The notes under the pieces were generated by a model. It saw only the letters and a program-made list of their open reading frames with translations, searched no databases and was not told where the DNA came from. A DNA stretch of 64,000 nucleotides, taken from contig BPHV01000001.1 in the NCBI GenBank assembly GCA_026003755.1, forward strand, positions 1,276,393 through 1,340,392, read 5' to 3'. This document shows, in pieces, positions 22,045 to 22,638 of this stretch. The translations under genes and the position numbers were made by a program. Each line of letters begins with the position of its first letter. Position 1 is the first letter of the stretch. The stretch comes from Candidatus Roseilinea sp. (lineage in GTDB: Bacteria; Chloroflexota; Anaerolineae; J036; Brachytrichaceae).

Positions 22045-22638
22045 ATGAGTGAACGACCCACGGTCAGCCCACGGTTGCAGGTGGGCGATGTTGCCCCGAA
22101 CATCACGTTAACCAAAACCACCGGCGAATGCGTCACGCTGGCGGAGTTGCTGCGACAAGGGCGCGTCTTGCTGGTCTTCCTGCGCCATTTTGGCTGAGTG
22201 TTCTGCCGGTCGGAATTGGCCAGGTTGGCCAAGCTCAACCCGCGCATCGAAGCTGCCGGCGCGCAGGTCGTCGTCGTGACGATGGGCCGGCCCGAGGAGA
22301 CCGAGCGATTCTGCGGTGAACGCGCCCCCGGCCTGCGCTGCTTCTGCGATCCGGAGGCGACTTCATACCGCGCTTATGGCCTGGCGCGCGGCAACACCGA
22401 CCAGTTGTTCGGGCCGGCGGTTTGGCTGAAAGGCGCGCAGGCGGCGCTAGGGGGCAAGTTCGATGGGCTACCCATCGGCAGACCGGTGGGCGACCCCTTC
22501 CAGATGCCGGGCGTGTTCGTGATCGGCGAAGATGGACGCGTGAGCTTCGCCTATTACAGCAAGCACGCCGGCGACTATCCCGACGACGCCGAGCTGCTGC
22601 GAGCCGTTGGAGCCATTAGCCGCAGCCAGACCACCTGA
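22045..22638 (+). CDS. Peroxiredoxin-like (AhpC/TSA_2-type) protein with in-frame TGA, probable selenoprotein
   Basis: Thioredoxin-fold protein of 197 residues when the TGA at 22195-22197 is read through. The frame MSERPTVSPRLQVGDVAPN runs into LLVFLRHFG, then TGA, then VFCRSELARL. Homologues have FLRHFGCxxCRE here, so the TGA takes the place of the first redox Cys and gives U51-x-x-C54. The codons downstream stay in the same frame to a normal C-terminus (GVFVIGEDGRVSFAYYSKH). After the TGA, CTGCCGGT (22203-22210) can pair with ATTGG-C-CAG (22215-22223) around a CGGA loop, a plausible bacterial SECIS. A nonsense mutation or sequencing error is the alternative. The upstream -10 candidate is TAAGAT at 22027. 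Confidence 0.8.

Follow-up and report, generated by a model that had tools for sequence, protein, structure and literature searches.

A SelL-related UxxC gene of Roseilinea-like Chloroflexota in which an in-frame UGA is very probably read as selenocysteine

SelL proper is characterized by a UxxU motif with a diselenide. Peroxiredoxin (Prx)-like selenoproteins of both the UxxC and the UxxU type are well documented (PMC1794560, PMC2398784, PMC9312934, PMC13188914). Here we describe a gene of the UxxC type in a 64,000-nucleotide stretch of DNA from Candidatus Roseilinea sp. (hereafter, the window). Set against the published descriptions of Prx-like UxxC/UxxU selenoproteins (pfam00578; PMC13188914, PMC9312934, PMC1794560), it shows no difference in kind: it shares the AhpC-TSA domain, the predicted selenocysteine (Sec) in the first position of UxxC, the pairing of Sec and Cys forms and a bacterial SECIS element shortly 3′ of the UGA, and the lineage in this case is Roseilinea-like Chloroflexota. 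Because Prx-like selenoproteins with UxxC have been described before, this gene is a well-supported further case of a known selenoprotein type and not a new phenomenon, and it leaves our knowledge of Sec decoding unaltered. It adds a well-supported UxxC selenoprotein to a Chloroflexota lineage, and it illustrates a SelL-related family with several Sec/Cys exchanges and a clearly covarying SECIS. Our literature search on bacterial 'SelL-related' or 'SelU' proteins returned nothing relevant.

The gene (Table 1) is one unbroken frame from ATG 22045 to the stop codon TGA at 22636–22638, except for an internal in-frame TGA that is followed by 146 sense codons. The motif encoded around the internal TGA is LVFLRHFG-U-VF-C-R, in which the TGA occupies the first Cys position of FLRHFG[C/U]xxC. 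A preliminary description of this DNA had recognized a peroxiredoxin-like gene, free of other stops or frameshifts, in which TGA substitutes for the first Cys of FLRHFGCxxC, a motif of AhpC/TSA_2-type proteins. The frame, the motif and the AhpC-TSA and AhpC-TSA_2 profile matches all agree with it; coding does resume in the same frame, although for one codon fewer than the 147 it had counted. We are nearly certain that this is a functional selenoprotein gene, in which the SECIS hairpin recodes the UGA as Sec to give a SelL-related oxidoreductase. In the mechanism that we propose, the hairpin would draw in SelB with Sec-tRNA(UCA), and SelB and the SECIS would recode the UGA as Sec; insertion at residue 51 is a prediction, whereas the sequence itself shows the open frame, the Sec machinery, Sec paired with Cys among homologues, covariation of the SECIS and purifying selection.

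Table 1 Features of the selenoprotein gene, in window coordinates
Feature	Position	Strand	Details
Selenoprotein coding sequence, stop included	22045..22638	+	197 residues, Sec = residue 51; unbroken frame with TGA = U; matches to NF040769, AhpC-TSA and AhpC-TSA_2
UGA codon predicted to be read as selenocysteine (Sec51)	22195..22197	+	TGA in 11/11 close loci; Cys codon in 90/130 homologous loci
Cys54 codon (TGC), UxxC partner	22204..22206	+	Almost invariant in the protein alignment; aligned with C47 of human PGF synthase
Putative bacterial SECIS hairpin	22216..22232	+	Stem UUGGCCA/UGGCCAA; loop GGU 22223-22225; place conserved and stem covarying in relatives

Standard ORF calling returned only 22198–22638, starting at a GTG directly 3′ of the TGA. 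Standard gene finders split the protein or begin at this GTG, which leaves out the active site. The GTG adjoins the TGA, as would suit termination followed by re-initiation at 22198 to yield two separate polypeptides, but it is not conserved, which argues against re-initiation: the codon after the TGA is ATA in two relatives (L025 and L058), and other TGA homologues have CCA, CTA, ATT or different codons there. A split would also deprive the redox motif of its first residue and the fold of its first strands, and we regard re-initiation as very improbable.

The internal TGA is retained in all 11 of the closest loci (80–99% identity), which correspond to approximately 8–9 distinct genomes, some of them reached by two routes. 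Among named relatives, Candidatus Roseilinea sp. NK_OTU-006 is the closest, with 96% protein identity, and the host is accordingly a Roseilinea-like bacterium of the Anaerolineae. Among all the loci examined, 40 have TGA at the Sec codon and the others a Cys codon, with TGT or TGC frequent in distant homologues. This was the count of Cys against TGA that the preliminary description had proposed. Given that most distant homologues have TGC or TGT at the site, such a codon might have been misread as TGA through a sequencing or assembly error. However, the TGA recurs in independent assemblies of the approximately 8–9 related genomes and in other Chloroflexota families; its presence in every near relative therefore rules out an error confined to one assembly, and this explanation is refuted in practice, with a negligible probability.

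The codons 3′ of the TGA are under purifying selection: dN/dS within the clade was about 0.07–0.11 in this part, and 0.05–0.38 in the part 5′ of the TGA, where sites are few. A pseudogene that genuinely ends at the TGA and decays beyond it would fit the halt of standard ORF calling at this codon, but not the low dN/dS 3′ of it across the clade, the lack of any further stop or frameshift, or the retention of the TGA over divergent lineages; we consider decay extremely unlikely. The gene lies 3′ of two genes that, from our own reading of the ORFs, we take to be pepA-like and lipoate-ligase-like, and this order is common to the clade. Searches of plasmids and viral contigs gave no matches.

The host genome (3.3 Mb in five contigs, 95% complete) encodes the Sec machinery that the preliminary description had suggested looking for. 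Alongside the SelL-like gene we found selA (515 bits), selB (322 bits), tRNA-Sec (73 bits; anticodon TCA according to ARAGORN, that is, UCA) and selD (364 bits). The selD gene has an in-frame TGA within SLASCAG-U-AGKLS, where SelD usually carries Sec, and SelD is therefore itself a predicted selenoprotein; this TGA is at about 1531–1533 of locus L021 (CAG-U-AGK), and the gene also carries a SECIS-like hairpin of its own. Nothing specific supports the idea that UGA is generally decoded as another amino acid (Trp or Cys) or is read through non-specifically. Against it stand the complete Sec system, the Cys and not Trp found at the internal site in homologues, and the fact that the gene itself, like several relatives, apparently ends in TGA; this alternative, too, has very little probability. 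Overall, the machinery, the retained TGA and the Cys homologues support the earlier reading of the gene as a probable selenoprotein, within which the SECIS coordinates alone are corrected below. By a hand count, selA was present in 28 of the 30 genomes that carry the TGA form, and the remaining two genomes are incomplete. We set little store by co-occurrence with selA as a test of Sec, because selA was present in 322 of the 400 Chloroflexota genomes sampled.

In the putative SECIS hairpin, 22216–22222 pairs with 22226–22232, with 25 nt between the UGA and the loop GGU. This loop G and this spacing conform to the published bacterial SECIS model, which calls for a G among the first two loop nucleotides and a spacing of 16–37 nt (PMC13188914). 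In Chloroflexota TGA homologues, the hairpin has a G among its first two loop nucleotides, and its loop mostly starts 24–25 nt past the UGA. The mean best hairpin energy was −8.9 kcal/mol for TGA homologues versus −1.4 kcal/mol for Cys homologues, among which a comparable hairpin was rare; the p-value of this comparison is nominal, because the rows are related and unequal in G+C. In one GC-rich Cys homologue (L028), a strong hairpin is possible by chance.

Covariation was counted in 23 distinct relatives with an AGUU/AGGU loop. In this set, 93.8% of cells were paired and two-sided compensatory changes occurred in six of the seven stem pairs; the covariation score was reached by none of 500 shuffles, and shifting the partner by 1–3 columns reduced pairing to 17–53%. 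The register in the window's clade is slightly unlike that of the 23 counted sequences, with a 3-nt loop, or a 5-nt loop with the A–U pair open. Hairpins at the same place in L026 (genome G330; CUGGCC-GGUCU-GGCCAG) and L038 (genome G385; ACUGGCUA-GGU-UAGCCAGU) differ from that of the window by compensating changes. In the window sequence taken alone, about 1.9% of synonymous recodings yield a hairpin of equal stability, and the case for the SECIS therefore comes from the relatives; within the genus and clade, synonymous sites of the hairpin showed no significant constraint (p = 0.12). The preliminary description had placed a SECIS-like hairpin at about 22203–22223. With −5.4 kcal/mol in RNAfold for the 21-mer, this structure is able to form, but as a SECIS it is weaker, it overlaps the conserved hairpin and its loop is closer to the UGA than 16–37 nt. 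Its stem retains 5–6 of six pairs in the clade and 1–6 of six in remoter TGA relatives. The claim thus holds for the folding but not for the SECIS, which we assign to the conserved, covarying hairpin at 22216–22232.

The protein matches the NCBIfam model NF040769 (SelL_rel_redox) over its full length, with 152.8 bits against a cut-off of 120 (model positions 2–172 of 173), as well as AhpC-TSA (PF00578; 63.2 bits against a cut-off of 26) and AhpC-TSA_2 (60 bits). AlphaFold2 confidently predicted a peroxiredoxin-like fold (pLDDT 91.2, pTM 0.88) with a helix, 52–70, that begins directly after residue 51, and Foldseek matched it to peroxiredoxins, Bcp/PrxQ, AhpE and human prostamide/PGF synthase. 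The last (PRXL2B; 9us9) is also the closest solved relative by sequence: its LRRFGCVVCR corresponds to LRHFGUVFCR of the window protein, with C44-x-x-C47 in register with U51-x-x-C54. It has Cys at the Sec51 position and shares approximately 24% identity with the window protein, which does not imply a shared substrate. With PrxQ/Bcp and the TxxU Sec-peroxiredoxins the fold is shared, but in the alignment with Aeropyrum pernix PrxQ (2cx3) it is Cys54 that faces the peroxidatic Cys. Because Sec51 lies three residues ahead of the peroxidatic position, the protein belongs, on this alignment, to the UxxC oxidoreductase type and not to the TxxU Sec-peroxiredoxins. An AhpC-TSA domain with the motif UVFC places it among the Prx-like thiol:disulfide oxidoreductase selenoproteins, and it differs from SelL proper in having TGC (Cys54) at the second position.

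By analogy with these proteins, the product would be a SelL-related peroxiredoxin-fold thiol/selenol oxidoreductase, whose Sec51-x-x-Cys54 centre lies where helix 52–70 begins. Sec51 and Cys54 would most likely alternate between a reduced pair and a selenenylsulfide as a peroxide or disulfide substrate is reduced, and a thioredoxin-like donor may then regenerate the reduced pair. Substrate and reductant are proposed by analogy, and either Sec51 or Cys54 may attack the substrate first.

A tree of 62 rows required seven Sec/Cys changes, at least five of which are forced by well-supported branches; it is compatible with repeated Sec/Cys exchange, whether by gain or by loss. In this tree, the window's clade is joined (97/91) to mostly Cys-containing proteins of Armatimonadota, Acidobacteriota and Bacteroidota, and its SECIS stem register is one nucleotide off that of most other Sec-containing Chloroflexota homologues. 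It is possible, though somewhat less probable than the opposite, that the Roseilinea clade acquired Sec independently of these homologues, as may be read from the mainly Cys neighbours in the tree, the one-nucleotide register shift and the at least five Sec/Cys changes. If it did, the family would be a good case of repeated Sec gain together with a SECIS.

Variant motifs were seen among the relatives. Unlike the window protein, three of them (L143 in G217, L145 in G097 and L151 in G304) have TGA at both motif positions (UxxU), like SelL proper; G304, which belongs to the window's genus, has a UxxC copy in addition to its UxxU copy. In a Pyrinomonadaceae (Acidobacteriota) homologue, at around 2959–3468 of L084, TGA is at the Sec site and Ala (GCT) replaces the second Cys (U-x-x-A). 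The genome contains selA, and a clear SECIS was not found for this homologue; the gene may encode an enzyme with one Sec or may be decaying. A Chloroflexota subfamily (L041, L043, L044, L046 and L049) has RHFGCSC, with the second Cys at C-x-C and not at C-x-x-C.
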